Below are positions 15,174 through 61,408 of a stretch of 64,000 nucleotides of DNA, in pieces (position 1 is the first letter of the stretch; each line of letters starts with the position of its first letter). The DNA is taken from assembly GCA_025769875.1 (NCBI GenBank), contig JAGFNK010000199.1, positions 23,995-87,994 on the forward strand, written 5' to 3'. Under the pieces are notes generated by a model. It made no database searches. It had not been told where the DNA came from and worked only from the letters and a program-made list of their open reading frames with translations. The translations under genes were made by a program, and so were the position numbers. This DNA is from Russula earlei (lineage: Eukaryota; Basidiomycota; Agaricomycetes; Russulales; Russulaceae).

Positions 15174-17420
15174 TTGAGAGGTGCAGCGTCCAAGACCAGG
15201 ACCTACTTCGAGTGCGTTGCGCTTTTACGCGCTGACGCTCAACTGATTCTCTTCGAATGGTCTGTCTCCTCATTAACATCGAGGAGTTTTCAGGTAATGA
15301 ATGGCTGGCCATATAATGCATGGTTACTAGTGAGAATTGCTCAGTAAGGGCGTTTGGGGGCATGGCTAGTTGGGCAAAGAGCGATAACATGCAGTTGAGA
15401 ATCGGAAATTGGACGAGATTGGACGAGAGGTCTAGGCAACGTGATCTGAAGACTGTGGGACCACGGACCCAAGGACGAGGCGATGATGTTGGCAAATCCA
15501 CTCCAAGGCTGCCTGCGCCAATGTTATCAAGTTCCGCCGATGATTTGGACCTCGTGGACCATACTAGATTCGGGGCCAGCGTGCCATTGGCAAAGACAAT
15601 GAATGTGCCTAAAAATAAAAATCATAACCACGATGCAAGTCCATGACAAACATGAGCATGAGGCACATCTCGCACAGCATGCGGAGTTGCCATGCTCACA
15701 CCAACGCCAGTTGATGTCACAGCCGAGCCGAAATGCGTCGTACGGGCACGTCCATTGCCGGCGTCGGCGGTCTATTGATCGGCCTAGTCCCTGACCCTTT
15801 GGCTCGAAGCTGTCGATTGGTCACTGTAAGTGCACCGTTTGGTGATCCGGTTTGTGTTTCGAACACGGTACGCACACGAGAAGCGCCTTTCGGGCCATTG
15901 GAGAATTCATAACGCACTGAGACAACAGGTCTGAGGTAGGTCACTTGGGACGCAGAAACGGTGTGGGGTCTGATGAAAGGTTGTGGTGTAGAGTGGTCAT
16001 GTCTTGAGGTTGGTTTGGACTGGCGTGAGTGTCTAGTAACCCAGCCCAAGAAACTCTCCCGTTCTTGTAGGGGTAGCAAATCGACCAGTGAATCTGACTG
16101 GGCCTATCGTAGTTCGCATCGCAGTGGCGGTAGGTTTAAGGGCTCTGTCACAAAATATCGTGAGCAATGGCTGTTGGTGTGCTGCACCCGGGCTAGATGA
16201 CAACACGTTCTTTCAGGATGACGAGTAGCAATTGGGAGGGAATGGTGGTCAGTCAAACTATCGAACCACAGTGACAACTGAGCGTCACGGTACGTCCTTA
16301 ATACGCGTCGTTTAGCCATACCCATCGACCCCAAACTTTCCGTTCTCGAATCAATGATCCTTTTACAATTACTGAATCCTGTCCATGGGGTCACCCGGCC
16401 TACGAATGGGAAAAAATAAATGCTCTCATGTTAAAAGTTTAACTCTTTAAAAGAGTCTGGACTCGAGAGTGACATTTTGATGAATAACGACTTATAGGGC
16501 ATTAATTATTATTATTATTATTATTATCATTATGCATATCCATCGTGTTTCTACCAATCCAATCAACAATAATTTCTCTCTCTTCTCTCCCAGCATCAAG
16601 AGAATGTCATCCTAAACATCCAGAAAATGAAGATGAGGGCGAGGAAATTTTCTTGACTACCTAGACTCACATAAATTGTCTTATCCGACAGATGACAACA
16701 TTCAATGTCCATGTTCAGTTCTCGTCTCGTCTCTCACCTTTATTTCCAATCGGAACAAAGTGTTTCACATCTGGCCATGACAGAAAAAAAATCGCGCGTT
16801 CTTGGTCCGACGGAACGTTCAACTGTCGATCCCAAACACGTTCCTTCAATCTGCCGAACCGCTTGAAACTCGTCGAAGCAGTCTTGAACGGTGCCTGGTC
16901 GATAGCTGCGCTCCGGGTCATCAATCTTCGTCGGAGGTTGTTGCGATGTAGGGGAGAGTTCGACCAGCCCGTCGTGCCTCGGAGAGCTAGTCACCGGTCG
17001 TTCGATCCGATGTTCGTATTCTTCTTCGATAATTTGGACATCGAAGGACACACATATGTCATTTCCCCGCACTCTGTTTTCGGCGACCAAATGGCAATGG
17101 CATTTACGAGGGCGGAAGACGCGCAAGGTTCTCTCAAACAGAGACGGCAACCTTGTTGCCCTGAGAAGCTGAGGGGGTCACCAGAATGGAAAAAGTGGTA
17201 TCAACCTTTGGCCTGCCGTTTTTAATGAGAGCGATCCTGAGGATGCAAATGACCAAACGTATGATCAACACAGGTGTGTGTGATGAGGATCGATCACATT
17301 CAACGAGGTGGCGGTGTAGAGTTCTCTAACTCCGTCAACGACTTGCACGTCATATTACTGCTGTGACTACTTTGACGAATTAGAATTACAAGACATGGTC
17401 CAATTTATTCCCCATCCCGC
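15174..17420. other. Gene-poor stretch with AT-rich core
   Basis: No gene is supported. The middle (about 16400-16700) is AT-rich and contains an ATT microsatellite. A 136-residue minus-strand frame at 16740-17150 and an overlapping plus-strand frame at 16692-17225 show no domain; one is necessarily a shadow of the other. Part of 15174-15600 should contain the promoter of the F-box gene, and part of 17226-17420 the 3' UTR of SEC31. Confidence 0.45.
16505..16532. repeat. (ATT)n microsatellite
   Basis: About eight ATT triplets in a row, followed by an imperfect ATC/ATT continuation, within an AT-rich gene-free stretch. Confidence 0.85.
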
Positions 17421-30790: not shown

Positions 30791-31056
30791 ATGCCCCGTC
30801 GGATTATCATCCCTCGAAAGTCGGTCTTTTTTCACACGCACTCGTGCGGGCTCGGCGACCGTGATGGGCACATTGTTCTCTCTTTCGACATGCGGATGAC
30901 GAAGATGGCGCGTCGTGAGAGAGAGAGAGGAGCTGATCTGTCGGCGTACCTACGGTCTAACCAGAATTAAAACGGTACGGACGTATTCCGATCTGTCGTG
31001 GAAGGGCGCTTTCATCTATCCCAATCCAGGCCTGCGCGCTTACGCGTAATGCGTCG

Positions 31057-31065
31057 TTTATAAGA
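31057..31065 (+). promoter_or_regulatory. TATA box of peptide gene A
   Basis: TTTATAAGA lies about 76 bp upstream of the ATG at 31133, and CCAATCCAGG lies 36 bp further upstream. The same TATA sequence is present before copy C (41457-41465). In copy B it is interrupted after TTTAT by a deletion of roughly 20 bp. Confidence 0.6.
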
Positions 31066-31132
31066 GACCCAGGAGACGAATATCCACCCAAAGCTATAGC
31101 ACGCTTCAGGTCGCATCCATCTCCCTTCAAAC

Positions 31133-31319
31133 ATGCGTCTCTTCCTTACTCCACTCTCTGTACTTTTGCTCGCTGTCCTTGTTCTTGCCCACCCTGTAAG
31201 GATCTCTCATCTCAGCTTACTTTAAGATCTGCCCACTCACTCCCTCGTAGACGGTAGAACCCGAAGTCAAACGGGGCACTAAGTATATCGGGAACAAAGA
31301 TTACAAACGGGACCATTGA
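31133..31319 (+). CDS. Small secreted peptide, copy A (43 aa)
   Basis: Two exons, 31133-31195 and 31251-31319, flank a 55-bp intron with GTAAGG donor and GTAG acceptor. Exon 1 encodes a textbook signal peptide (MRLFLTPLSVLLLAVLVLA, then HP). Exon 2 encodes the whole mature part, about 22 residues: TVEPEV, KR, GTKYIGNKDY, KR, DH. The two Lys-Arg pairs are classical Kex2-type processing sites, so a ten-residue GTKYIGNKDY product (after basic-residue trimming) is a reasonable prediction. There is no cysteine and no C-terminal CaaX box, so it is not a lipidated basidiomycete mating pheromone. It was called from three tandem copies that preserve frame, splice sites and stop. I do not recognise the family. 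Secretion through ER and Golgi is inferred; function is unknown. Confidence 0.65.
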
Positions 31320-32385
31320 GTCGCGTTCCAATCCATGCGGGTTGTTGAAGGTGTGCACACAGACTTGGCAACCAGCACAATCGGGCTGAGTGAGGGAACC
31401 ATCAGGTCGTGAGCGTTGCTGTCGGTCTGTTCACGGTGAAAGAGGATCACGTTTCGTACACTTCTCGAGGGTGAGGTGTATATCATGTCCAATTGGCACT
31501 CGGATTTTGTTTTTTCGCTCGGATTCATCGCTGTGGAAAATTATTATGTCGATATTGGGGTTTTGGGTGATTCGTGATGTGATGGTGTGTGCCATAGTAG
31601 TGCAGTGGGCAAGGTTTTTGGTGGCGGAGGCTTTCTGACACTTCTGACTCAAAATCAAACGTGGCGTATCAAGATAAACGGACAGTCTTTCTGATCTCGA
31701 TACTATTGCAAAGTCCAATCTCTTGACGTGCCCCACATGACGTCTGGGGGTGTGATCCATCCGTAGCTTTTTTACAAATGACTTTGACAGGATCAGGACG
31801 AGTCTCTGTAGTGGGGCCGCAAGGTGAGTGGAGATATATACTTAAGATGCGTAACTTCTAACCGCTTCAGGCCAGTGTATATCATCCCGGTGTATGTTCA
31901 CCCACCATCCCCTTTCTGATGGAGAACGGCGACCACGGCAGCAACGATGAGAAGGTCCTTGCAGGTGCGGTAGGCATGGGCATTCCCGCAACGTTCCAGG
32001 GTTCCCTGCGTGGAAACGGCAGCTCGACAAGCTCGATGAAAGGTCCTCTCAATGAGCATGCGCCACCGGATTATCATCTCTTGGAAATCGGTTTGTTCAC
32101 ACGCACTCGCGCGGGCTTGGCGACCGTCATGGGCACTTTGTTCTCTGTTTCGACATGTGGGCGACGGAGATGGCGCGTCGTGAGTCTCACGAGGAGCTGA
32201 TTTGTTGGCGTACGTGCGGTCTAACCAGAAATAAAACGGAAAAAGGTAAGGACATATTCCGATTTGTCGTGGTGGCAGGGGCGCTCTCATCTATCCCAAT
32301 CCAGGCCTGCGCGCTTACGCGTATTGCGTCGTTTATCCACCTAAATCTATAGCACGCTTCAGGTCGCATCCATTTCGTTTCAAAC

Positions 32386-32574
32386 ATGCGTCTCTTCCTT
32401 ACTCCCCTCTCTGTACTTTTGCTCGCTGTCCTTGTTGTTGCCGACCCTGTAAGGATCTCTCATCTATGCTTACTTTACAGTAAGATCTGCCCACTCACTC
32501 CCTCGTAGACGGTAGAACCCGAAGTTAAACCGGGCACCGAGTATATTCATAACCATTATTGGAAGCGGGACTAG
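32386..32574 (+). CDS. Small secreted peptide, copy B (42 aa)
   Basis: Same architecture as copy A: exon 1 at 32386-32448 (signal peptide MRLFLTPLSVLLLAVLVVA, then DP), a 59-bp intron and exon 2 at 32509-32574. The mature region reads TVEPEV, KP, GTEYIHNHYW, KR, D. The first Lys-Arg of copies A and C is Lys-Pro here, so the first cleavage should be lost. The C-terminal His is also lost, because TAG comes directly after the Asp. The upstream TATA motif has been removed by a short deletion. The copy may be silent or may make a longer, altered peptide. The frame is nevertheless intact. Confidence 0.58.
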
Positions 32575-32980
32575 TATTGAGTCGTATTCCAATCCATTCG
32601 GGTTATCGAAGGCGCGCACACAGACTTGGCAGCTAGCACGCGATCGAGCTGAGTGAGGGAGCCATCAGGTCGTGAGCGTTGCTGTCGGTCTGTTTGCGGT
32701 GAAAGAGAATCACGTTTCGCACTCGGTTTTTGTTTTTCGCTCGGGTTCATCGCTGTGGAAAATTATCATGGGGTTTTGGGTGATTCGTGATGGTGTGTGC
32801 CATTGCGGTGGGCAAGGTTTCCGGTGGCGGTGGCTTTCTGACACTTCTGACTCAAAATCGAACGTGGCGTATCAAAGGACAACAAGATAAAAACGGACAG
32901 TCTTTCTGATCTCGATACTATTGCAAAGTCCAATCTCTGACGTGCCCCAAATGACGTCTGGGGGTGTGATATATCCATAG

Positions 32981-34040
32981 TCTGTTTTAGTGCTGTTCCG
33001 GCCCGGCTCGGCCTGAAAGCCCCGGCTTTGGCCTAGGCTCGAGGCGGCGCCGGCTTTCTCAAATCCAGGCCGAGCCAAAGCCGTCAAACCCGGCTTGGCT
33101 CGGCTTAGGCCGCGGCTTTTCAATGTAATATGAATGAATTGTTTCCGTACAGGTCGCCAATGGACGCTACGACGCTACTGTAGCGCGCCTGTTCGGGGCA
33201 CACGGACAGGGAGGAACCGAGAGCAAGCGGGGATCGTGCCCCGGATCCGACGCTTGATGATGTCCTAGAGGCGCGGGTAAAGGAGTGCGCGAGTGCGCGT
33301 GTGTTCTTGTAGGAGAAGGGAATGATCTTGAGGCGGTCGAGGTTCCCTCTGGCACACGAGAGAGTCAGAAGGGACATCAAAGCTGCTATTCGAGACTGTA
33401 GCCACCAGCCTTGAATACTGTAGCACAAGTTAGGAGAACCGAGCAATCAAAGGGCGCAGAGGGACATGGAACGCGAGACGAAACGAGACAGGAGCAAGTG
33501 AGGATGACGTCGCGACAGACCGCGAACTAGAACCGATGTGTAAGACAATCTACACTGATCGGAACGAGGCAAGCTCTCCGATTTCTCTTACAGGCAAGTG
33601 TAAGCGAAATCGGAGAGCAAGTAAACGAAGGGGGGTGGGAATTCATAGCAGTACAGTATATCAGCCAAGAGCGTACCAAAAACCGATTCCTCCGACTCCG
33701 AGTCCGCGAGCGCGGGGCGGCGCGACGATGACGACCGGGCGAGGCGCTGCGGGTAGCGAACCCTCGCGTAGAGCGGTGATGACGACGCGAGTGCGTCGCG
33801 TCCGTGCGTGGACGTGTGGCCGGCGCGAGGACGATGCTTGAGGGACGAGGGGGCTGGAGCCGAGGCGAGTGACGTCGACGGCGATCGACTTGAGCCGTTG
33901 TCGCCGTCTGCTGACATGGGAGTGGGCAACGCGAAGGATGACGTCGTGAGTGTGAACGCGAGAAGGCGGGAGAGGGATGAAGGACGATGGAGAGAGGGAC
34001 GACGCGTGGCGCGCAAGGGGGCGTCATGTGAGACTCCTTT
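32981..34040. mobile_element. 1.06-kb insertion in unit B with hAT-like end
   Basis: In units A and C a CCATCCGTAG/CCATAGG-type segment runs directly into TTTTTACAAATGAC. In unit B about 1,060 bp lie between these points. The insert opens with TTTTAGTGCTGTTCC, followed by 120 bp of repeated CGGCTCGG / CCGAGCC motifs in both orientations (33000-33122). Such GC-rich subterminal arrays after TAGTGCTGTTC-type ends are familiar from fungal hAT transposons. No matching far end and no transposase are present, so it is at most a truncated or composite element. It also contains a 20-bp inverted repeat at 33573-33618. A 166-residue Arg/Ser-rich minus-strand frame (33527-34027) has no recognisable domain. 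Confidence 0.5.
33573..33618. repeat. Near-perfect 20-bp inverted repeat (hairpin)
   Basis: The left arm at 33573-33592 and the right arm at 33599-33618 pair over 20 bp with one mismatch and a 6-nt loop (GGCAAG). It lies inside the insertion in unit B. It could be a cruciform, a transposon terminal structure, or the stem of a small RNA precursor; nothing in the sequence decides between these. Confidence 0.8.
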
Positions 34041-34435
34041 TACATATGACTTTGACAGGATCAGGACGAGTCTCTGTAGTGGGGCGGCAAGGTGAGTGGA
34101 GATATAGTAACTTCTAACCGCTTCAGGCCAGTGTATATCATCCCGGTGTATGTTCACCCACCATCCCCATTCTGATGGAGAACGGCGACCACGGCAGCAA
34201 CGATGAGAAGGTCCTTGCAGGTGCGGTAGGCATGGGCATTCCCGCAACGTTCCAGGGTTCCCTGCGTGGAAACGGTGGCTCGACAAGCTCAACGAAAGGT
34301 CCTATGAATGAGCATGCGCCGTCGGATTATCATCTCTCGAAAATCGGTTTGTTCACACGCACTCGTGCGGGCTTGGCGACCGTCATGGGCACATTGTTCT
34401 CTGTTTCGACGTGTGAATGACGAAGATGGCGCGTC

Positions 34436-34448
34436 TCTCAGAGGAGCT
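34436..34448. repeat. LINE target-site duplication, left copy
   Basis: TCTCAGAGGAGCT, a 13-bp match to 41314-41326 at the other end of the LINE. Uninterrupted unit A continues from this point into the same sequence found after the right copy (GATCTGTCGGCG). Confidence 0.9.
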
Positions 34449-34632
34449 TTTTTTTTTTTTTTTTTGAATCCGCATTTGTATACCGCAGCGCGTATGACGT
34501 GATACAGAGGCGGTCACGGGCTATGTAGCGACGTATTGTGATTAGGTGATGTGGGTTATATGTAGTCCGCTAGGGCGGTATGGCAGCGTTAGGGTGTAGT
34601 GTGTGGTGGTCGTAGATGGTGGTCATGGGACG

Positions 34633-37600
34633 TTATGCATCCTCCCTCTCCCTTGCTCCTCCTGGGTCCCAAAGTTCTCTTGGTCTGAGGCACGCTTTAG
34701 TTTCTTTGAAGAAGCGTAGCGTGCTCTGCGTCCGCTCGGGGTGGTTGAACAGCTGAGTGATGTTCCGTGGGCGGCCTCTTGTAGACAGATGTCTTCGGCG
34801 CGCGTCGTCGTAGATTGGGCAGCGCAGGAGCACGTGCTCGACTGTCTGGGGGGTTTCGCCGCATTGGCAGGCGATTTGTGTGGGGGTGTGCCTTGGGTGG
34901 AAGCGTTGTGTGTACTCCCCGGTGAAGGCGTGTCCTGTGATGAAGCGGTAAAGAGTGGAGGTGATTAGTCTGGGGAACTTAGCTTGTTGTTCTGTTCCGT
35001 GGTTTTGTGGGTTGGCGTTTCGCCTTCCTGTGTTTGTTTTTTCCCGCTTCTTTTGTGCGATGGCGGTGGGATGTGGTTTTCCATCCGGCGGTCTGGTGAG
35101 GGCTGTGCGGTAGGCGAGGGAGGTGCGTGGTGCTTTCGTGCCACGCCTTCTCCCATTCCGCTACTGCCTCCTTTTCGTGTTTCTTCCTTTGTTCACATAG
35201 TGACATGGGGTCTGTGTTTCTTCCGGCAGGTGCAGTGCGTGCGGTGTGGGCGGCTAGGCGTTTGGCCGTTCAGGTACTCTGTTGGTGCTATATCTTTGGG
35301 AAGCCAGAGCAGTTTTATGTTCGTTTGAGGGTGTGTTGCTAAGATCTCACCTAGTTGTGTCAGATGGCGTAGGGCTGTTTCCTGTTCGTTGTGTGGTTTG
35401 GGGTTGATGGTTTGTTTGGTGGCGGCGTGCGTTGGTAGGCATATGTGCACCACCGTGTGTGTTGGCGTCGTTCGCGAGTCAAGGTAGTCCGAAAGGACTT
35501 CTAGTCCGGTTGTGAGGGAGCGCGTGAGTGTGTTCTCATCTGTTACTGTTGTTCCGAGGGCTCGTTCTTTGTGTCCCCATACTTTCCCATCTTTGTATAG
35601 TACCGATGCTATTGCGCCGATTTGATTGTCGTCCATACGGTCCTTGTTAGTTTTGACTCCGTTGCAGTAAATGTTGATGGCTGATCCGGCGCGGCAGAGT
35701 ACTGTTATCGTTGCTTTTTGTTTGGTTTGGTTTTGGCGCGTTTCTGCGTAGTTAGGTCCACCTGTTTCTATTGTGATGCGTCCGTTCCAGTCTGGCACGC
35801 CTGTTGGGAGATTCGGGAAAGCCTCTATGCAGGGGGCTGTTCGCTGGTGTACGGCTTGCTAGCAATCTTAGGGTGGTTTTCGCTCGTTGGCTGTTTGATG
35901 AGGGGAAGGTGTCAGTGTTGTCTGGTTGACGGTACCAGGCTCCCCCTAGTCTTCGTCGTAATTGGCTGTCGATCGTTGTACGGTGAAGCCTCAACGCTGC
36001 GTTGTTGGAGAGTTTGTTCAGCCGTATTTTCATCGGGAAGATGGTTAGTAGCTGATGTAGGGGTTCTCTTGGGGTTGTGCGGAAGGCTCCAGCTATGATC
36101 CTTACCGCTTCATTTTGTACTACTTGTAGTTTCCTTACCAATGTAACTTGTTTGCCTGTGTACCAAAGCTGGTGTCCGTACGTTAGCGTGGGGAGGCAGA
36201 TGGCAATGTATATGCGCCGCCACTTCGCTTGTTCCAGCCCCCTGACGGAGTTGCCTAGTAGCTGTAGGGCTTTGAGCGAGGCCCTCGCTCTGTTACACAT
36301 GTAGTCAACATGTTGCGTCCATGTGAGGCGCGTGTTAAAGAAGAAGCCGAGGTACCTAATCGTGTTGGCTGCCGTGACTCTGTAGTAAGTGTTATGAGAA
36401 GGGATTGGGAGATGGACATAGCTGGGTGGTTCTGTTTTCTCTCCTCGCTTTCGGAAGAACAGAACTTCCTGTTTTTTCCGGTTCTACATTTAGCCCTGCT
36501 TTGTTTAACCAGTTGGTGCAGTCTGTGTATCGTGTGCGGAGTGTTTCCTCAATTGATGTCCAGTCTGGTCCGCACGCGAAGATGGCACCATCGTCTATGT
36601 ACATGGCTAATGTCGCTTGGTTCCAGTTCTTAGCTTTGTGTAGCATGGGTGAGGTGTATAGGATAGATAGGACCGGGGAGGTGGGCGATCCTTGGGGGGT
36701 ACCCGCTACCAGGTCGAAGGGGTCCGAGGCATGTCCATTGAACTTTAGACGTACCTTCCTGTTAGCTAGGAATGAACGGCACCACCTAACCATTTCCAGG
36801 CGCAAAACCCAGGTTCTCGACCACCTGCGTTAGACGTGCGTGATTGATATTGTCGAAGAAACCCTGTATGTCAAAGAGCAGTACGCCACATCTGAGGCCT
36901 GCTTGGTGTGCTGCTTGGATATCGTGCAGTAGAGCGAGGCCCGCGTCAGTTGTTGATGACGCGTTCCTTCCTCCATATTGGGATGTGGGGACGATCTCAT
37001 GTTTTCGCCATGTCCTGGTATATTAGTTTGGCCACAACTTTTTCCAGAAGCTTACCAAGGCATTCCAGTAGTGCTATCGGGCGGTAATTTTTTGCTAGTG
37101 TGTAGTCAGCTCTGTGTGGTTTGGGTATGACGCACACTAGGGCTTCTTTCCATACGTTCGGGTGATGGCCTGTCTTGAGACAGTTTTCGATGAGCCAAAG
37201 GAGTCTTGTTGGGTTTGCTTCCCATGCCCATTTGATTAGCGTCCAGGAGTGGCCTGAGGGCCCCGGGGCTGACCTCCCAGATACTTTCTTTAGTAGGTCA
37301 CTTACTAGGTCTTTTTGTATTTGGGGTAGTGGTCGTTGTTGGAGTGGCTCTGGGTCATCTGGGAAGTGCGTGCTCACTTCTTGTCGGTCGCGGGTGAAGA
37401 AACGCTGTGAAAAAGTGTTAGCCATTTCATTGTGAGAGTTCGTGATACCTTCGGTTCCCTGTAGTGGGGGAATCTTTGTTGTTTTGCGTCCGTGTCTCCA
37501 AGTGGCGAACTTCCCAGAGTTGGGCTCTGTCGATATAGTCATCGGCCCAGTGTCGCTTTGCTGCTCGGATTGTGGTCTTCAGTCGTTTTTGGGCTCTCCG

Positions 37601-38658
37601 TCGCTCATCACTGTTGGGTGCTTCTTTGAGTGAGAGGATTGCCCTCTTGCACTCCGCATTCCACCATGGTGCAGTGTGTCGGTGATGTTGGCGTCTCTGT
37701 TTTAGCGTCTCTACATTTGTGAGTTGAATGTCAGTCATGTAGCGGGCTACCTCGTCGTCTAGTTTTTCGGTGGATGTGATTGTGGGTGGGCACCATCTTT
37801 TACCTATTCCCTTGAAGCTTTTGATCCAGGCGTCTTTCTGTTCTGGGTCAACTAGGAAACCTAGGTCTGGGTTGTCTGTTCCAGAGTCAGTGTTGTGCGT
37901 AAGTGGGTTACCTGTGATGCGGAGCATGGCGTGGTCTGAGCCTAGAGAGCCAGGCCAGTCTATGGCGAGGTTTGTGAAAGTGGCCGACCTCACCGCCGCC
38001 ATGTTGAGCCATGCCAGGTCTATTGTGGAGTCTCTCTCATGGGCTGCTCCTTTGTGCGTAATGTCTCCGGGGGTGTTGGCTAGGATGAGAAGGTTTGTCG
38101 CCGTCCAGTCTTCTATACGGTTGGCCCATGGAGATTTGGGGATTCCTTGTGGGGACCAGGTTGGTGAGTGGGTGTTGAAGTCGCCTATTACTGAGTGTCG
38201 GGAATGTTGGGGTCGATGTCTATGTTTAGGAGAGCTGCGAGGGCTGAAGCGTCCTTAACGTCATGGTAGAAGTTGATCACTTGCCATGTTTCGTTGTCTA
38301 GTAGTATGTCCAGCACTTGGATGCAGGGGTGTTTGCAGACGTCTTGTCTTGTTGTGCCTGTGAAAGGTGGTGCTTTCCGGTTGTTTGAGTTGTGTTTCCG
38401 CGCGTAGGACATTACCTTTGGTACTTGACCATTTACGAAGCCTGGGTAGAGGAGCTCCCATGCTGGGGAGGCTGCTCCACCTAGAATGTCTGTGCCGTTT
38501 CGGGCATCGTCCTTGCGTGCCGTCCCTATTTTGTTGTACCAGGGTTCCTGTACAAGTAGTAGATCTGTTTCTGTGGCGCTATTTAGTAAGGCATGGGTCA
38601 TGGCGTTGCGCCTATGCATATTAACCGATGCTATGCTTAGAATAGGGTGTTCCGTCAT
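34633..38658 (-). pseudogene. LINE ORF2: endonuclease-RT-RNase H, frameshifted
   Basis: Reads in order: endonuclease (ILSIASVNMHRRNAMTHALL, LLVQEPWYNK, then GDFNTHSP), reverse transcriptase (YRPIALLECLGKLLEKVVAK, FDIQGFFDNI, GTPQGSPTSPVLS, MYIDDG), RNase H-like region and a C-terminal zinc-finger-like part with CPIYDDARRRHL. The frame changes near 38195, 37515, 37005, 36806, 36300-36390 and 35790, so no full product can be made from this copy as written. Its ATG overlaps the stop of ORF1 in a TAATG arrangement at 38656-38660. Either the copy is dead, or single-base errors in homopolymers are hiding a longer frame. Confidence 0.88.
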
Positions 38659-41312
38659 TACAGAGGGTTGGTTGTGGCAGCGCTTCCTTGTGGGCGCGAG
38701 TGTGGTTGTTCGGTGGCACGCACCTCTGCGTGCTTTGGCTGCAGTGTGGGTCCGTTCCCGGGTGGGCTGAAGGAGATTGTCTTCTTTTTGGGTGTGGTTT
38801 GAGGTGATTCCGCTCCGCCTGGGGTGGCAGGGCGCGGGTGTGCATGGGTGCTTTGGTTTGGATTGTGGTCGAAGGGGTCGTCACCTACCTTGTCTAGGTC
38901 CATGTACATGTCGTCTTCGTTGTCGCGGTCGGTTAGGTTCTCTGTCCATTTGCGGTGTGCTTCGTCCTCTGGTTCGGGTTCAGTTTCCCTGCCTTTACCT
39001 TTGTCTTTTGAGCGGACTGCTCTGCGTGGGGCCCTCGTTCTGTAATTGTCTCTGGCGGGGCACTTGGCGTCTCTGCAATTATGTCCGGTTAGTTGGCAGT
39101 TAAGGCATTTGAAGTGCGAGCAATCGCAGAGTCCTGCCGTGTTGTGTTTTCCGGCACATCGTTGGTCGTGCTCCTCTGATTTGTGGGATCCGCTGCAGAT
39201 GTAGCATCTTACCGAGTCTTTCCCAAGCAGGCACGCTTTCGATTTTTTCGTGTGTCCTAGGGCGTGGCATCTCGAGCATTGAACTAAAGCGGGCTTGTCA
39301 ATCCACTTCACAATTTGGACTTCCTTACCAAATAAGGCAGTGTGCCTCTTGGCTAGCGCGTTGGTAACCATTCCGTTTGGGTCTGAGATGGCAAAGGTGA
39401 TGGTCGAATATGTGCTGTTGATCCTCTCAATGGGTTTTAGCCATCTCGGGGTCATAGAGAAGTGAGCATTTCTGAGGCCTGGTAGCGTTCTTACCTCTGT
39501 GAGGAGGTCTGCCAGTCCAAAGATGATGTCATCATTGTCCTTGACCGGGACTCCATGCGCGAGTAGGCGTGTCCATCCCAGTGATGGGCACAGCTGTCCT
39601 ACTCCTTGGAAGGGTTTGAGTAGGAGGTGTTCGTATGATAGGATGTGTTTGAAGGGAATGTTACCTTGGAAGGAGTAGACGAAATTACCTCTGCTGCGCG
39701 GGTGTACACTCCATCTGCCTGCTTTGAGAGGGATTGGGTTGGCTACCGCCTTGCTCATGCTGAGGCGTACTTCCCTCACAATGGCGTCTGCAGCTCGGGT
39801 GCAGCTGTCTGGTTCCGTTAGTGTGTTTTTGAGCTCACCTGATCTCAGTACTGTTACTTCCGTGATGGCATTCGGAGTGGTTGTTCTTGGTTTGGATCCA
39901 GTGGGCTGCATTGGGTTGTTGGCCGCGGCTGCTGCTATGGTGGCGTAGGTTGCTGGGGTGATGGTGGTCATCGTTAGTGCGGGCGTGGGTGTTCCCTTAG
40001 TTGTGTTTTGGTCTTTCCGGTTTCTCCTTTTGCTGGATACTGAAGTGAATGTGTCTTCCGGCTTCTCCGCGGTGTTGGGGGCAGCGGGAGGGCATACTTG
40101 TGTGGTGTTGGTCAAAAGGGGTGGGGGTGGAGGTGGTACCTTGGGCCTTGGGTTCCCGTCAGCGCGTTTTGTGGTCTGCGACTCACCTGGTATTGCGTTT
40201 GGCGGCGGTGGCATGGAACGTTTCTCCATGGCTTCTAAGCGTGCTACGAAGGGGGCCATCGCCGTTATAACTGCTTGAGTGATAGCAGCAGTGTCCGTGC
40301 GTGTGGTTTTCTGTGGTTCTGTTAGCAGTCTAGGGGGGGACTTACTTTTGGGGTTGGGTGTGGGGGAGGGGTCCGCCTGCCTGCTGGGTGGGTGCGGGGT
40401 GTGGGGCGGGCGTAATTGCTTCCGTCCTCTCGGTGTGTGGGAGTTGGGGGTTGTGACGCTCGTTCCACTGGGCGCTGCTGTACGTGGTGTATTGGTTGCG
40501 GCTAGCTGCGGGGCTGACCCAGAGATGGTCCTTTTGTTTCCGGCTTTGGGTGTCGTCTGTATGTGGTCAGTGCTTTCTGGCGCGGAGAGAGTTAGACCTA
40601 GCTCTTCGGCAGTGTTCAGGAGGAGGGATATGTTCCTGGTTCGTGCAGCTGTGGTGATTTCCGCCTCCTGTGCTGCTGCTCTTTGCTCAATTTGTTTCTC
40701 CTTCCATACTCGCCAGGTCTCTTCGATCTCGGTTGATGCTTTTTTGGCGACTTTTCTCCGGTAGTCTTCCAGAGTGCTGGAGAGCTCACCTTGGTAGTCT
40801 AGGAGATTTCTGGCGAGATGGGCAGCCAAAAGGTTAGCTGTGTCAGTCAATCTATGAAAGAGGGTAGGGAGGGCGGGTGCTGCTGGGGCTGGGTCTGCGG
40901 CTCCTGCGACGACATCTGAGATCTCAGTTTCATCAAGGTCGTCGATTGCCTGGAGGAACCCGTGTCCAATGGCATTCACCAAGTGGCAGCTGAGTTGGGC
41001 CCAATCTGAGGCGTCTAGCGACCCTGGGGTTTTTTGGGGAAGAAAGCCCTTTTGAATGGCATGGAGTACCATGGTGGCGTTGGATTGTAGGGAGGAGGAG
41101 GAGGGGGAGGGGTCTCCTTCAGCCTGTGGTTGTCCCGTGAAGGTCCCGCTGCTGTCGGCTGTGGCCTCCTGCAGGGGGTCCGGGTTTTTTTGTGTCTCCT
41201 TGCTTGGTAGACGAGTCATCCCTGGGTCGGGGGGCTCCTCTGGGCGAGGTTGGGGGGGGTTGTGATTAGGGTTAGGGTTGGGGGTTGGTGGTGGTAGCGG
41301 ACCTAGATCCAT
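38658..41312 (-). CDS. LINE ORF1: Gag-like nucleic-acid-binding protein
   Basis: An uninterrupted 884-residue frame with ATG at 41310-41312. The N-terminal half is Pro/Thr-rich with a coiled-coil-like segment (YRRKVAKKASTEIEETWRVW). A middle domain resembles the RNA-recognition-like part of LINE ORF1 proteins (SFQGNIPFKHILSYEHLLLK, then WLKPIERINSTYSTITFAIS). The C-terminal region has three Cys/His knuckles: CSRCHALGHTKKSKAC, CYICSGSHKSEEHDQRC and CLNCQLTGHNCRDAKC. It probably binds element RNA. That ORF1 is intact while ORF2 is broken is notable. It lies directly against the 5' junction, so its native start may be further upstream in complete copies. Confidence 0.85.
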   Translation of the reverse strand: MDLGPLPPPTPNPNPNHNPPQPRPEEPPDPGMTRLPSKETQKNPDPLQEATADSSGTFTGQPQAEGDPSPSSSSLQSNATMVLHAIQKGFLPQKTPGSLDASDWAQLSCHLVNAIGHGFLQAIDDLDETEISDVVAGAADPAPAAPALPTLFHRLTDTANLLAAHLARNLLDYQGELSSTLEDYRRKVAKKASTEIEETWRVWKEKQIEQRAAAQEAEITTAARTRNISLLLNTAEELGLTLSAPESTDHIQTTPKAGNKRTISGSAPQLAATNTPRTAAPSGTSVTTPNSHTPRGRKQLRPPHTPHPPSRQADPSPTPNPKSKSPPRLLTEPQKTTRTDTAAITQAVITAMAPFVARLEAMEKRSMPPPPNAIPGESQTTKRADGNPRPKVPPPPPPLLTNTTQVCPPAAPNTAEKPEDTFTSVSSKRRNRKDQNTTKGTPTPALTMTTITPATYATIAAAAANNPMQPTGSKPRTTTPNAITEVTVLRSGELKNTLTEPDSCTRAADAIVREVRLSMSKAVANPIPLKAGRWSVHPRSRGNFVYSFQGNIPFKHILSYEHLLLKPFQGVGQLCPSLGWTRLLAHGVPVKDNDDIIFGLADLLTEVRTLPGLRNAHFSMTPRWLKPIERINSTYSTITFAISDPNGMVTNALAKRHTALFGKEVQIVKWIDKPALVQCSRCHALGHTKKSKACLLGKDSVRCYICSGSHKSEEHDQRCAGKHNTAGLCDCSHFKCLNCQLTGHNCRDAKCPARDNYRTRAPRRAVRSKDKGKGRETEPEPEDEAHRKWTENLTDRDNEDDMYMDLDKVGDDPFDHNPNQSTHAHPRPATPGGAESPQTTPKKKTISFSPPGNGPTLQPKHAEVRATEQPHSRPQGSAATTNPL

Positions 41313-41313
41313 G

Positions 41314-41326
41314 TCTCAGAGGAGCT
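41314..41326. repeat. LINE target-site duplication, right copy
   Basis: TCTCAGAGGAGCT, identical to 34436-34448. The sequence after it resumes the upstream region of peptide gene C. Confidence 0.9.
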
Positions 41327-41548
41327 GATCTGTCGGCGCACCGACGGTCTAACCAGAAATAAAACAAAAAAAGGTACGGACATATTCCGATTTGTCGTGG
41401 CAGGGCGCTTTCATCTAGCCCAATCCAGGCCCGCGCGCTTACGCGTATTTGCGTCGTTTATAAGAAAGAGAACCAGGAGAAAATCGAGCAGGAATACCCA
41501 CCCAAAAATCTATAGCACCCTTCAGGTCGCATCCATCTCCCTTCAAAC

Positions 41549-41735
41549 ATGCGTCTCTTCCTCATCCCCCTCTCTGTGCTTTTGCTCGCTGTCCTTGTGG
41601 TTGCCGACCCTGTAAGGATCTCTCATCTATGCTTACTTTCAGATTTGCCCACTCACTCCCTCGTAGACAGCAGAACCCGAAGAAAAACGGCACACCAAGT
41701 GGATCAAAAATAAAGATTACAAACGGGACCATTGA
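41549..41735 (+). CDS. Small secreted peptide, copy C (43 aa)
   Basis: Exons 41549-41611 and 41667-41735 with a 55-bp intron. The signal peptide is MRLFLIPLSVLLLAVLVVA, then DP. The mature part reads TAEPEE, KR, HTKWIKNKDY, KR, DH, so both Lys-Arg pairs and the DH tail of copy A are kept while the segment between them differs. The TATA motif TTTATAAGA (41457-41465) is intact about 90 bp upstream. The LINE lies 220 bp upstream of the start codon, so the proximal promoter survived the insertion but more distal elements have been moved 6.9 kb away. Confidence 0.65.
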
Positions 41736-42438
41736 GTCGCATTCCAATCCATTCGGGTTATTGAAGGTATGCACACAGACTTAGCAACCAGTACAATGGA
41801 GCTGAGTGAGGGAGCCATCAGGTCGTGAGCGTTGCTGTCGGTCTGTTTACGGTGAAAGAGAATCACGTTTCGCACTCGAATTTTGTTTTTCGCTCGGGTT
41901 GATCGCTGTGGTAAATCATCATGTCAATATTGGGGTTTTCAGTGATTCGTGTTAGTGTGTGCCAAGTAGTGCAGTGGGCAAGGTTTTCGGTGGCCTCCTG
42001 ACACTTCCAACTCAAAATCGAACATGACGTATCAAAGGACAACAAGATAAACGGACCGTCTTTCTGATCTCGATACTATTGCAAAGACCATCTCTTGACG
42101 TGCCCCACGTGACGTTTGGGGGTGTGATCCATCCATAGGCTTTTTACAAATGACTTTGACAGGATTAGGACGGGTCTCTGCAGTGAGGCCGTAAGGTGAG
42201 TGGAGATATACAATATGCGTAACCTCTAACCGCTTCAGGCCACTGTTTATCATCGCAAGATCTCCCGGAGTGTGTTCACCCACCATTCCCTTTCTGATGG
42301 AGAGCGGCGAACACGGCAGCAACGATGAGAAGGTCCTTGCAGGTGTGGTAGGCATGGGCATTCCCGCAACGTTCCAGGGTTCTCTGCGTGGAAGCGGCAG
42401 CTCGTCAAGCTCAATGAAAGGTTCTATCAGCGAGCATG

Positions 42439-48956: not shown

Positions 48957-49026
48957 GGTTATGGGCCCTGACTGTTGCCATTGACCAAACCAAAAAGACT
49001 ACATTCATTCACTTGTAACAACCACA

Positions 49027-52000
49027 ATGGACGACCTCAAAGTCCCTATTGAAAAGTTAGCCAGCGATGGCAGTAATTGGGTCACTTACCGCGACTGCAT
49101 GATGTTGACTTTCCAATCTCGAGGGCTGAGAGAACACCTTACCGAAGTCAGCGTCTCGGCTGCATACATTGCTATCGGCAACGTGGGCCACTTGACGCCA
49201 CAAGCCCGATGGGATATGGACAATGCCACAGTAAAACAATTAATAGGGGCATCAATCCCCAACAGTGTCTTCACGCAAATCAGAAACAAAATAAACGCTA
49301 AAGAAGTGTGGGACGCACTCAAAGCGTTATTTGAGACACGCACCCAAACAATAATAGTCAACCTGAAGCAGCGACTACAATCAATGCGTTGCGGAGAAGA
49401 AGACAACGTTTGGACGCACCTAGAGAAGGTGGCCGACCTCCGAGAGCAACTCGGATCTATGGGAAAAACCATACCTGATGATGAATATGCAGTGATTTTG
49501 ATGGGATCACTGCCCTCTTCTTATCGGTCTTCACGCAACGCTATCGCCACCTCTGCCTATATTGGTGGACATACAATTACTGCTGACACAATCATCAAAC
49601 TGATTACTGACGAGTTTGATCAACGTACCCTAGACGCCAATTCCAAGGCCCAAGAAGAGGCCTTTACTGCCAATGCCCAAAAGAAAAAGGGGAAGAAACG
49701 CGATATCGAGTGTTTCAATTGCCATAAAAAAGGGCATATGAAGTCCGATTGTTGGGCAAAAGGAGGCGGTAAGGAGGGGCAAGGACCGAGACAGCATGCA
49801 GGGAAGGACGGTGGGCGGAAGAAATCTGACGCCGGGCCAAACAACACTGCCGTTTCAGCTGAGCCAGTGGAGACCGAAGCGTGGGCTGCTATAGAACTGG
49901 CAGACGAAACTGATATTGCAGAAGTGGTCCCCAGAGCCAAACTGAACGGCCAGACAACCGAGCTCTATGACTCAGGAGCTACGCGCCATATGTCACCTTT
50001 TCGAGACAAATTTATCACTTACCAGAAAATCGCCCCTCATCCTATTATCGCTGCTGATAAGCGAACCTTCTACGCCATTGGCAAAGGAGATCTTCAGATC
50101 GATGTCCTGAACGGCACAAAGTCGACAAAAGTGCTATTGCGCGATACTCTTCACGTGCCAGATATTGGAGTGACAGTTGTATCCATCAGTCAAATTTTGA
50201 AAGCTGGCTACTCAGTCAAATTTTCGGGCAACTTCTGCGATATCAAACGAGGGAGCGACGGGTATATTGTGGGGAAGATACCATCAGGAGTGAATGGCCT
50301 ATTCAAAGTCGAACACAGTATGGCTGCGACCACATCGGAAATTTCCGAAAACCTTCTCACGCTCCACAGGAGACTTGGTCACATCTCCCCGACTACCATC
50401 CGCACCCTCATTCACGCCAATGCTATTACGGGCGTTCACTTGGTGGATGACCCAACTATTCCATTTATTTGCGACTCTTGTGAGCATGCAAAATCCACGC
50501 GCAAGGTTATCCACAAGAAGCGGCAAGCGCCTCTGGCCCAGGCATTTGGAGATGAGGTGCATACAGACCTATGGGGAGCTTCACCTGTCCAGAGCCTTGG
50601 TGGCCGAAAATATTATGTGACCTTCACTGATGACCATACTCGGTGGACTAACATAGAAGCCCTACGTACCAAAAGCGCAACATTCGAGGCATACAAGGCG
50701 TTTGCAGCATGGGCGCAAACGCAACGAGGCGTTTGTATCAAACGCCTTAGATCTGACCGTGGCGGTGAGTTCCTCAGTAATGAATTCACTGACTTCTTGA
50801 GAAACCAAGGTACTGAGCGACGCCTCACAACCGCTGACACGCCCCAACACAATGGCGTAGCGGAGTCGCTCAACCGCCGCCTAGTCAAACGCGTACGCGC
50901 CATGCTGCACCAAGCCCAGTTGCCCAAGAATATGTGGGGCAAAGCTATCAGACATGCTGTTTGGCTGAAGAATTCGCACGTCCACACGCGCCATTGGCAA
51001 CGTAACCCCATATGAGAGGCTATACAATGAGAAACCTAACTTGAAAGACGTTCCAGAGTGGGGACAAATTATTTGGGTTCACCTCAAGAAACAACCCAAA
51101 TTGGATGCACTGCGCTATACAAGCGCGATGGGTTGGTTACGATACCGACAGTACCCACGCCCATCGCATATATTGGCCAACACAAAAAAAGATCTCCGTC
51201 GAGCGCGACGTGAGATTCCCCACAATTGAAGTGGGGCCTACCATTCCAATACTCACTACTCCATTACGCACATCGCACGTCATAAAGGCATCACCTAGGC
51301 CACACTCACCGACATTTACAGCACCATCATCCCCTCTCCCCATTTCACCGACGTCAACTCCGTTACCACCATCACCTCTTACACCGGTCACGTTAGCACC
51401 TCAAACTGACGATGAAGAAGAAGAAGTCAAACAGGAACTTGTGCCTGTGCGCACTCCTGTAACCACGCCGGTACCGAAAAAGAGAGCACAGAAACTTACA
51501 CAATTCATACAACCGACGCGTCGATCCGAACGCGTGCCAAAACCATCATATATTATGCGGCAAATAGCTGCAGGAGAGGGTACAGCAGAGGGCACTAATA
51601 CCGATTATGCCCATTACCTTGTTGCCACAGAGTTTACTGACACAAATTCAATTCCACCGATCGAGATCAACAGCGATCCGAAGTCATATGCGGAAGCGCG
51701 ATCCCGCTCCGATTGGCCTCAATGGAAAGAGGCAATGGATCGGGAGCTGTCGACTCTCGAGGCGGCCGGCACCTGGGAAGTTGTACCACGCCCACGCGAC
51801 AAAAATATTATCAGTTCAAAGTGGGTTTATCGCATTAAAAGAAAGGCAGACGGAACTGTACTCAAATACAAAGCATGGCTCGTTGCCCGCGGCTTCACGC
51901 AAATATACGGGGTGGACTATTTTATCACCTTTTCTCTGGTTGCTAAATTAACAAGCTTTTGCATCATATTGGCGATCGCCGCGCGGCTCGACTGGGATAT

Positions 52001-53246
52001 CGAAAGTTTCAATTTCAACAGAGCCTACCTAAATGGAGAACTGGATGCTAATGAAGAAATCTACATGCAATCTCCCCCGGGTTATGATGACAATTCAAAC
52101 ACCGTGAAGCAATTAAAAAAATCTCTTTACGGCTTAAAACAAGCCGGGCGTAAATGGTATGATACGCTCACGCGCGCCCTCGTTAACATCGGCTTCAGTA
52201 TCACCGAAGCCGATTCAGGAGTCTTTATAGCGCGTGTAGGAGAACACACACTCATCCTTGCAGTCCACGTTGACGACTGCATTCTAACGGGCAGTTCACA
52301 AACACTGATTAGGCAGTACAAAGAGAAGATCAATTCCTGTTACACGCTGATGGATCTAGGGCCAGTCCATTGGCTACTGGGCATCAAAGTTACTCGCGAT
52401 CGTGCAGCGCGAACTATATCTCTTTCCCAATCATTATACATCGACACCATCTTGGCGCGATTCGCATTCACCAATGCAAAGCCATATGGTACTCCTATGG
52501 TCCCCGGTGCAATATATTCGAAGACGGACGCACCTTCATCACCAGACAAGATCGCCCACATGCAGAAAACACCTTATCGCAAAGCCATAGGAAGCCTAAT
52601 GTATCTTGCCGTTGCGACATGCCCGGACATAGCTTTCGCTGTTTCATCACTTTCCCAATTTCTCGACAATCCGGGTATAACACACTGGGAAGCAGTATAG
52701 TGGATTTTCCGCTATCTTATCGACACTAAACAAATGAAATTAACCTATGGCAATGAAAGACATGATCTCATCGGATATACGGACGCCGACGGTGCCTCCC
52801 AAGAACATCGACACGCTATCTCCGGATACGCGTTCCTTATTGATGGAGGTACAATATCTTGGGCTTCGAAGAAACAGGAACTTGTAACACTCTCCACGGC
52901 TGAAGCAGAATATGTAGCAGCTACGCACGCAGCAAAAGAAGCCATTTGGCTTCGCAAACTTATCAACAAACTATTCCCCTCCCTATCCAGCTCTATCATT
53001 TTATATTGCGACAACCAACCTGCTTTGAAACTCGCTGAAGACGATAACTATCGCGCATGCACAAAACATATCAATTTGCGATATCATTTTATTCATCAAG
53101 TCGTAGCTGCCAAAACCGTGGACTTGAAGTACTGCCCAACGGAGGACATGCCCGCAGACATCTTAACAAAAGCTTTACCTAAATGGAAGGTAAAGATCCA
53201 CACCCAAACTCTTGGTCTGTATCGCGCGTGCGGGGGTGTGATGTAA
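49027..53246 (+). pseudogene. Copia Gag-Pol polyprotein, interrupted
   Basis: Segment 1 (49027-51015, 662 residues) encodes a UBN2-type Gag, the zinc knuckle CFNCHKKGHMKSDC, the protease site LYDSGATRHMSP and the integrase (zinc-binding HRRLGHIS...CDSCEHAKST, core with TDLWG, DDHTRW and DRGGEF). The frame is lost near 50985 and again near 51105. Segment 2 (51105-52700) carries the reverse transcriptase (WKEAMDRELSTLEAAGTWEV, LYGLKQAGRKWYD, HVDDCILTG). An in-frame TAG follows at 52698-52700, where the family normally has a Lys codon. Segment 3 (to 53246) carries RNase H (YTDADGASQ, STAEAEYVA, LYCDNQPALKLA, KHINLRYHFI). As written the copy cannot make an intact polyprotein. Confidence 0.92.
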
Positions 53247-56441: not shown

Positions 56442-59400
56442 TTAGGGGTTACTCCTGGTGGGAATTGTCTTAAGCGCCTTCGGATATTTCCGATGGAAGT
56501 CTTTAACAAGTAACTGCGCTTTTGATAGGTTAGATGCTGGTTCCCAAGTATTTTCTGCGACCGTATACCCTTTCCATTTAACTAGGTATTGGATTCCTTT
56601 GCGGTTTGGGGAGAGCCGAGAGTTTAGGATCTGCTCTACTTCATATTGTTCTTCACCTTCGACTAATATTGGTGGCGGGTTTGAAAAGTTAGGACCATGG
56701 GCAATGGTTTCTTTGTAAGGTTTAATCAGGGAGTGGTGAAAAACTGGGTGTATCTTCCAAGACCTTGGTAGTTCGAGGCGAACGTTTACTGGATAGGCAG
56801 TGGTGACTTTGAATGGCCCATAGCGTCGAGGGGCTAGTTTTGCTTTTGGGTGAGTCGTTCGTAGATTCGTGGCTTCCAGCCATACTTGATCCCCTTCTTT
56901 AAAACGAAATGTGGAGGTTTGAGGTCCTGATTGCTTCATGATTTCTGTTGCTCGGTTCAGGGAGGCAGCTACTTCTTCTCTGAGTTGGTTTAGTCTTGAT
57001 AGTCTTTCTTGGATTGAAGGGAACTTTGATGTAAAGGCAAGGGGCGGAGCAAATGTTGGGTTAAAGCCATACCAGACTTCAAATGGGGGTTTGTTCGTAG
57101 CACTGTGTTGTCTGGCATTATGTGCGAATTCCATAAAGGGAATTAGTTCTGCCCAATTGTCTGCTTGATGGTTGCAAAATATTCGTAGGTATTGTTCTAG
57201 TTCTTGGTTAACTCGTTCTGTTTCTCCATCTGTCTGTGGATGATATGCTGTACTTAGTGATACTTTGACATTTAACTTTTTCCATAGTTCTTGAGTGACT
57301 TTTGCTGCGAATTGAGGGCCTCTGTCCGATATTATTTGTGTTGGGAGTCCTATTCTTCTCCAGACATTGTTCATGATTAGTGTTGCTGTTTCGTCTGCTG
57401 TGATTGTCTTGTGGCAAGGGGTAATGATTATCGCTTTACTGAATCGATCTACCACGACTAGGAGGCTGTCGAAGCCTTGTGAAATCGGTAGGTCCGTGAT
57501 AAAGTCCATAGTAATGCTTTTCCATACTTCTCCAGCTGGTGTAATCGGTACAAGGGGTGTTTCTGTCTTTGGACGGTTCTTTGTACTTTGGCAAATTGCG
57601 CAACCTGTCTACATAACTTTTGACATAAGTTAGCATTCCTGGCCACCAATAGTTTCGGCTGATCAGTTCATAAGTTTTCCATTGGCCAGGATGCCCAGTG
57701 GCAAGGGAGTCGTGGTGTAGTTTTAGAATTTTCTTTCTTAGGGTGTCGTTGTTTGGGATGTAGACTTTTCCTTTGAATAGTATTAGTCCATCTTCAAGGT
57801 TCCAGTCCTGTAAGCCTTTGGATAGTCGCCTTGGTCCATTCTTTATAATGATTGCTAATGCGTTAGATACTTCTGGGTCATAGTCTTTGCTAGATCGTAG
57901 TTGTTGTCGAAGTTCCTGGTCGCCGATTGGTTCTGTAGCAGAGGTGCGTGTTGCTCTAATTTTAAAAAATTTGTCATCTAGGAGCACCTTTCCATCATTT
58001 TCATTTTGTATCCCCTCTTTAAAGTCTGGCCGCCTGGACAGACCGTCTGCTTTGTTCATAGTTCCTGGGTGGTGGGTGATGGTGAAGTCGAAATTGCTGA
58101 GGAGGAGTGCCCATCGGGCTTGTCGTCTCGTGAGTTTCTGTTTTGTCATGAAGTATGTCAAGTTATTGTGGTCTGTCCATAGATCAATGGGGTGTGTAGC
58201 GCCTTCAAGGTAGTGTCGGAAGTGCCAGAGGGACAAGACGATAGCAAGGAGTTCTTTATCATAGATCATGTAATTTCGTTGTGCGGGGTCCAAGGATTTC
58301 GAGAAATAGGCTACTGGGTGATATCTGTTAAATTCATCGGGTTGTTCCAAGATTGCACCGATCGCAAAGTCACTTGCATCGCAGATGAGTCGAAAGGGTT
58401 TCGTGTGGTTAGGTAACATGAGGATTGGGGCCGTTGTGAATGCTTGGATTAGCTTTCTGAAATGCTTGTTCTTCATCGTCTTCCCACTTGAAGGGGTTTT
58501 CTTTCTTTGTTAAGTTAAACAAGGGCCGTGCTATTCGAGAGTATTGGTGGATAAATCGTCGATAGAAGTTGCAGAATCCTAGAAATGCTTGTACTTCCGT
58601 AACATTGGTCGGAGTAGGCCACTTTGTAATGCCTATTAACTTGTCTTGGTCCATGGATATTCGTCCTTGGGAGATATTGATGCCTAGGTAACTAATAGAG
58701 GTTTGTCGGAAAGCACATTTCTCTGGTTTCAAGTATAAGTCGTGGTCTTGGAGTGTTTTTAGGACCTTATGTGTCCAGTCGTCTAGTTCGTTCAAGGTTT
58801 GCGCCATGATTAGTATATCATCTAGATAAACAACCACTCGTTCAGTGGCAATGTATTTTGCTAGGATGGTGTTCATAAAGCGTTGGAAAGTGGCTGGGGC
58901 GTTGCAGAGACCAAATGTCATTATCAATGGTTCGAAGAGTCCTAATGGTGTCTTGAATGCTGCGAGGTGTTCATCGCCCTCTCTGAGGCGAATATTGTTG
59001 TATCCCCATCGTACGTCAAACTTGGTAAAGTATTGGGCTCCTTGGAGTTTGTCAATTAATTCAGGAATCAAGGGTAGTGGATACGCGTCTTTGACAGTTG
59101 CTGTATTCAGGGCTCTGTAGTCTTGCACTGGTCGTAGATTTCCTCCTTTCTTTTCTACAAAGAAGAATGGGCTGGCAATAGCTGCTTTTGATGGTCGGAT
59201 TGTGCCTCTCTTCAAATGTTCATCTAAGTATTCTTTTAGGGCTTGTAGTTCCTTGGGAGTAAGTCGATAAATGCCAGAATCACGTCGGGCGATCCCTGGT
59301 TTTAGATTGATTGCATGGTCCCATGGTTGGTGAGCAGGAAGGCGTTGAGAAGCTTGTTCATCGAAAACCTTTCGCCATTTCAAGAATTGGGCGGGGATAA

Positions 59401-61150: not shown

Positions 61151-61408
61151 TAGGTGGGGCTGAACCTTGTAGTTGGATTCTAGTTGGAGTGAGCGTTCGA
61201 GGGACTGCTTGTGGTACGTTGCTAGTTGTATGAGGAGTAGGTTGTTGGGTATTACGCCGAGTAGAAGGTCCTGGAGTGGTGCTTCGAGTGCTCTGAGCAG
61301 TTCCTAGGATAGCGGTAACTTCTTGAGGTGTTCTGGCTGAGAAATCGACTTCTCGATTGTTATAGTAAACCCAATGTCTTCTAGAACGGCTCCACTTGAC
61401 TGGTCTGT

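Follow-up and report, generated by a model that had tools for sequence, protein, structure and literature searches.

A tandem array in Russula earlei encodes a candidate orphan family of secreted, single-core Kex2-type peptide precursors

KEX2-processed repeat proteins (KEPs) of Agaricomycetes combine a signal peptide with short cores flanked by Lys-Arg sites, and their function is described as largely unknown (PMC9769878, PMC6339444, PMC7329392). Repetition is built into their definition, as one survey counted precursors with at least four fragments (PMC6339444) and several cores per precursor were also required in another (PMC7329392). In Coprinopsis cinerea, KEP-type peptides are really released, one of them from a single-core precursor, and six kep knockouts had no apparent phenotype, the authors suggesting dealings with the biotic environment (PMC9769878). 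In the same fungus, the peptides were still present in all kex knockout strains examined, so that no single kexin was shown to be required (PMC9769878). The single-core protein, apparently 365456, was kept outside the KEPs by its authors for want of repeats (PMC9769878).

We analyzed a 64-kb stretch of R. earlei DNA (the window), which lies inside an 88-kb contig (C199) of a 66.6-Mb genome. Positions 30791–42438 comprise three tandem units on the plus strand, each with one small peptide gene: unit 1 with gene A (30791–32053), unit 2 with gene B (32054–34313) and unit 3 with gene C (34314–42438), all ends being approximate. The tandem amplification proposed in the initial annotation holds as three units in a row, but the array is broken by a retroelement of ~6.9 kb in unit 3 and a repeat element of ~1.05 kb in unit 2. 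DNA and protein searches of the fungus's own genome returned the same three loci and no further copy among the best candidates scored.

Each gene was read as an ATG-led, 63-nt exon 1 that is signal-peptide-like by hydropathy, one intron with GTAAGG at its 5′ end and TAG at its 3′ end, and an exon 2 of 69 (A), 66 (B) or 69 nt (C). In gene A, exon 1 (31133–31195; residues 1–21), a 55-nt intron (31196–31250) and exon 2 (31251–31319; TVEPEVKR-GTKYIGNKDY-KRDH and stop) give the product MRLFLTPLSVLLLAVLVLAHP-TVEPEVKRGTKYIGNKDYKRDH. Gene B consists of exon 1 (32386–32448), a 60-nt intron (32449–32508) and exon 2 (32509–32574; TVEPEVKP-GTEYIHNHYW-KRD and stop), giving MRLFLTPLSVLLLAVLVVADP-TVEPEVKPGTEYIHNHYWKRD, and gene C of exon 1 (41549–41611), a 55-nt intron (41612–41666) and exon 2 (41667–41735; TAEPEEKR-HTKWIKNKDY-KRDH and stop), giving MRLFLIPLSVLLLAVLVVADP-TAEPEEKRHTKWIKNKDYKRDH. 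The precursors are thus 43, 42 and 43 residues long, each with one core. A and C carry the ten-residue core between two Lys-Arg pairs and B has the second pair only; by alignment, the core codons lie at 31275–31304 in A (GTKYIGNKDY) and 41691–41720 in C (HTKWIKNKDY), with the equivalent codons of B at 32533–32562 (GTEYIHNHYW). Thr31, Ile34, Asn36 and Lys40-Arg41-Asp42 are identical in all three copies, Lys28-Arg29 is common to A and C, and residues 33 and 39 are Tyr or Trp throughout. Cysteine is absent, and the C-termini, KRDH or KRD, contain no CaaX box. The initial annotation had described three one-intron precursors of 42–43 residues, with a signal-peptide-like exon 1, a short exon 2 with Lys-Arg sites, two such sites around GTKYIGNKDY in A and HTKWIKNKDY in C, and neither cysteines nor CaaX; our hydropathy analysis and reading of the frames and translations agreed on every point, and its splice coordinates (31195/31251, 32448/32509 and 41611/41667) were exact. 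A Pfam search with A, B and C assigned no family.

Compared with KEPs, the array precursors have Kex2-type sites, read from the sequence, that bound the core twice in A and C and once in B, and the hydropathy and lack of charge of exon 1 fit an N-terminal signal peptide. KEPs carry several cores per precursor, whereas here each gene has one core and whole genes are repeated. Because the KEP surveys require several cores, the array genes are not KEPs. The nearest published architecture found is the C. cinerea single-core protein, in which a signal sequence is likewise combined with a single short Kex2-flanked peptide (PMC9769878); it ends in a glycoside hydrolase, whereas beyond the second Lys-Arg the array precursors continue for only one or two residues. 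The secretory route and Kex2-type sites are common to the array, ascomycete alpha-pheromone precursors and alpha-like basidiomycete KEPs (PMC9769878, PMC6339444). A further likeness to alpha-type precursors is the presence of X-Pro dipeptides (HP or DP, EP) in the segment ahead of the core, but the X-Pro/X-Ala motif of those precursors follows a Kex2 site, and the array precursors, with their one core, do not place theirs so.

The coding status of such short frames was assessed from composition and from divergence between copies. Residues 3–19 of gene A have a mean Kyte-Doolittle hydropathy of 2.72 and no charged residue, and 0.4% of first-order Markov resamples of the bases of this exon were equally hydrophobic and uncharged. 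The window contains 1093 open frames of 21 codons that start with ATG; three of them reach the hydropathy of A while uncharged at 3–19, and these are the three copies, with A passing by construction because the threshold is its own value. When both strands of the window were scanned for one-intron frames of 30–60 residues with two dibasic sites 6–16 residues apart (permitting nine 5′ splice hexamers, acceptors CAG or TAG, and Lys-Arg or Lys-Lys as dibasic sites), A and C alone were returned. As duplicates amount to one event, divergence between the copies is the better test. Across 42 codons, 33 substitutions relative to the majority consensus produced 15 amino-acid changes, compared with a mean of 21.8 in a neutral simulation (P 0.005) run with a majority ancestor (ties given to A), a transition share of 0.62 and a fixed start codon, the last codon and stop being excluded. 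Fewer amino-acid changes combined with no stop in any copy had a joint P of 0.003; the lack of stops taken alone was unremarkable, occurring in 0.44 of simulations. Substitutions were in excess at third positions (P 0.016), and the 132 exon columns contain a single gap event, of 3 nt, versus 20 such events in noncoding sequence (614 ungapped columns).

The neutral simulation, gap counts and window scans thus bear out the proposal that these are small coding genes, in the sense of a frame under constraint. They are likely real small genes, and their products are likely secreted. A chance frame within a duplicated noncoding segment is improbable in our judgment. It would account for the failure to find a homologue, for three copies that represent one event and for the presence in the units of further open frames of similar length, including one shared by all three, but it fits poorly with the joint P value, the single 3-nt exonic gap, the rarity of so hydrophobic and uncharged an exon 1 among resamples, the prominence of the frames in the window scans and a pattern of change bounded by the Lys-Arg pairs.

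That pattern was examined by region of the three-copy alignment. Variable columns numbered 22 of 176 in the 5′ flank, 8 of 63 in exon 1, 4 of 55 in the intron, 23 of 69 in exon 2 and 54 of 383 in the 3′ flank. The core codons (31275–31304 in A) varied in 16 of 30 columns versus 80 of 614 noncoding columns (Fisher 5e-7), a comparison of small counts from ten residues in three copies of one family, and the rest of exon 2 (6 of 33 tested columns) was not faster than noncoding sequence (P 0.27). Without regard to the peptide, a scan of the entire alignment placed its densest 30-column window of change at 31275–31304 (scan P 1e-4), precisely the stretch of ten codons that the two Lys-Arg pairs enclose. 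Pairwise differences in the core were 11/30 (A–B), 9/30 (A–C) and 14/30 (B–C), and those in noncoding sequence were 50/614, 53/614 and 57/614, respectively.

For exon 2, NG86 dN was 0.22 (A–B), 0.19 (A–C) and 0.39 (B–C), dS was 0.45, 0.47 and 0.51, and dN/dS was 0.49, 0.41 and 0.77, so that dN/dS gave no sign of positive selection in this exon in any pair. Since all ratios are below 1 and synonymous change is raised as well, our claim is limited to a raised overall rate in the core and does not extend to positive selection. Gene conversion of the surroundings would produce the same pattern; either the core escapes homogenizing conversion, or its changes are under selection that so few sites cannot reveal. 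Conotoxin-style gene families have a conserved signal exon, a divergent mature part and gene duplication. The array offers a resemblance only, as it has no cysteine frame and its dN/dS is below 1. A second hot spot, at 30915–30953, was taken as an artefact because it sits at the unit-3 join, and a join-free realignment mostly omits that stretch.

We favor the reading that the array is an orphan Russulaceae family of secreted single-core Kex2-type peptide precursors in which A and C work and B is decaying, and we give this reading as a whole a probability of about 45% on the sequence evidence. The 42–43-residue precursor would enter the ER by way of the exon-1 signal peptide, which is probably cut after Ala19, the position we presume from the small-residue rule to be the signal peptidase site. 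Cleavage by a kexin-type protease after each Lys-Arg pair, with carboxypeptidase trimming of the basic ends, would leave linear ten-residue products, GTKYIGNKDY from A and HTKWIKNKDY from C. Amplification of whole genes, instead of core repeats within one precursor, would supply several core versions, and the peptides would have an extracellular role, directed at other organisms (root, competitor or bacterium) more probably than at mating. We infer expression, secretion, cleavage, the linear product and its outward target from the architecture of the genes. A Kex2-released ten-residue product is plausible, and the case for it is strengthened because the fast stretch coincides with the Lys-Arg bounds. 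The same genome holds a kexin-type gene (S8 plus P domain) on contig C27 and a DPPIV-type peptidase on contig C40.

The peptide may instead be used whole, with signal peptidase removing residues ~1–19 and the remaining 23–24 residues, without any Kex2 step, forming the product. Under this reading, the basic pairs would belong to a cationic peptide, for example of the antimicrobial or mycorrhiza-induced small secreted protein kind. Named members of the latter group are larger than the array precursors. We hold this alternative to be unlikely but worth serious weight. In its favor, the frame of copy B is open despite its missing first Lys-Arg, and mycorrhiza-induced small secreted proteins are mostly species-specific (PMC8417538). 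The array precursors resemble those proteins in being small, secreted-looking and without relatives found, and in coming from Russulaceae, a family that includes ectomycorrhizal fungi (PMC8417538). A product used whole does not, however, explain why Lys40-Arg41 is the same in every copy, as Lys28-Arg29 is between A and C, or why fast change begins and stops exactly between the pairs, and no more than a few proteins of the mycorrhiza-induced kind were reported from Lactarius (PMC8417538).

The three copies differ in their state. Gene A has a TATA-like box, TTTATAAG, at 31057–31064 and gene C has the same box at 41457–41464, both on the plus strand, whereas an alignment gap occupies that spot upstream of gene B, so the TATA-containing promoters of the initial annotation apply to A and C and not to B. 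Copy B also has Lys-Pro in place of the first Lys-Arg and a stop one codon early. A family of three working genes, as had been suggested, is therefore too strong a claim: A and C are intact, and B is without the TATA box and the first Lys-Arg. B could be decaying, as the favored reading has it, or could be the source of a longer, N-terminally extended peptide.

Two mobile or repeated elements lie within the array. A degenerate non-LTR retroelement (34449–41313, minus strand; ~6.9 kb) contains a CCHC zinc-knuckle frame, an Exo_endo_phos_2 endonuclease and a weak reverse-transcriptase match; a poly-T end is present, the 13-nt target-site duplication, TCTCAGAGGAGCT, occurs at 34436 and 41314, and the element lies ~220 bp upstream of gene C. 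The unclassified repeat element in unit 2 (~1.05 kb; 32990–34045, strand unassigned, ends approximate) has relatives on contigs C976 and C342. Its terminal 56 bp, which precede a possible 5′ splice site, recur in unit 1 (95% match) and, as a 62-bp match, in unit 3 (84%).

Decay could extend to the whole array, which would then be the relic of a formerly working peptide family whose raised core change reflects relaxed constraint. The loss from B of its TATA box, first Lys-Arg and last residue, the retroelement and repeat inside the array, and the joint rise of synonymous and non-synonymous change in exon 2 would all suit a relic. Relaxed constraint alone, however, should not push the rate above that of noncoding surroundings, the frame overall is still constrained, and A and C each still have an unbroken frame, a TATA box and the two Lys-Arg pairs. 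We rate a relic as distinctly unlikely.

A precursor of the dikaritin type, in which UstYa-type oxidases would cross-link the core Tyr into a cyclized peptide, is very improbable. The signal-like leader and the short Tyr-containing core flanked by Lys-Arg recall that type, but the array precursors have a single core and no repeats, and no UstYa (DUF3328) match was found genome-wide at E up to 10, a search in which the control genomes gave no match either. DUF3328 genes, moreover, stand beside only 103 of 1680 basidiomycete KEPs (PMC7329392). The identified neighbors of the array, which also speak against the dikaritin type, look like housekeeping genes. They are of CPSF type, UbiA (under its cut-off), ATP_bind_1 and Arb1, together with a protein that we take to be Sec31-like from reading its translation. 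The window also encodes an F-box-like protein (13758–15224) with 69% identity over 97% of its length to a Russula dissimulans protein (Russulaceae, Agaricomycetes); among the best 120 of its 881 matches (7999 candidates scored), the organism names are Russula, Lactifluus, Lactarius and Multifurca. Five neighboring frames searched against NCBIfam gave no match.

The genome was also searched for pheromone receptors. STE3 gave 38 matches among those listed, on contigs C727, C53, C163 and C25 and none on the array contig. Several of the matches on C53 and C727 had equal or near-equal scores, and this similarity may represent two haplotypes or an assembly duplicate of the receptor locus. Basidiomycete mating pheromones have a CaaX C-terminus, whereas the array precursors end in KRDH or KRD. 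A mating role for the array peptides is unlikely because the mating pheromones of basidiomycetes are described as prenylated a-type (PMC9769878) and the STE3 matches lie on other contigs. An alpha-pheromone system was set aside, the STE2 family giving one sub-threshold match (contig C9, L024:1372–2043; 17.8–18.3 bits against a cut-off of 27.2) and the controls also being without a match. The frame at L024:1372–2043 is hydrophobic and membrane-protein-like, and had no Pfam match besides the sub-threshold STE2.

Relatives were sought more widely. When precursor A and the three-copy alignment were compared with ~5.8 billion proteins, Russulaceae included, no candidate shared three words; relatives this short may be unpredicted in such a collection, or too diverged for word sharing. 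Pattern searches yielded 31 stretches in viral contigs and 167 in bacterial and archaeal contigs, all poor places for fungal genes, and none was confirmed. Across the own genome, the protein collection and the viral, bacterial and archaeal contigs, no relative was found beyond the three array loci. Literature searches likewise brought up nothing on this family.

If expressed and cleaved, the precursors would constitute a secreted peptide family overlooked by repeat-based surveys, which miss such genes by design because they demand several cores per precursor. Frames of 43 codons are also often skipped by gene callers. The array would equally offer a small set of candidate peptides in Russulaceae, a family in which the Lactarius study found only a few small secreted proteins of the mycorrhiza-induced kind (PMC8417538). 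More speculatively, the tandem genes might keep the secretion and processing frame and swap only the ten-residue message, forming a lineage-specific extracellular peptide code, outside lipidated pheromones, in what is probably an ectomycorrhizal fungus, with each copy addressed to a different receptor on roots, competitors or the fungus itself; we would give this idea long odds.

Other features of the units and their surroundings were recorded. The window was scanned for RNA families and tRNAs, and none was found. Of the 12 longest open frames per unit, some exceed the peptide gene in length and several vary in extent between copies, as judged by eye. One plus-strand frame, 31862–32074, lies in a block conserved in every unit and is open in all three, with a possible intron before it. 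Pfam gave no match for this frame, nor for a frame on the minus strand of unit 3 overlapping the conserved block. The block and its copies might belong to a second gene or have a regulatory role. To the right of the array, a Copia-type element occupies 48985–52700 (plus strand) and a chromodomain LTR element 56442–61303 (minus strand).
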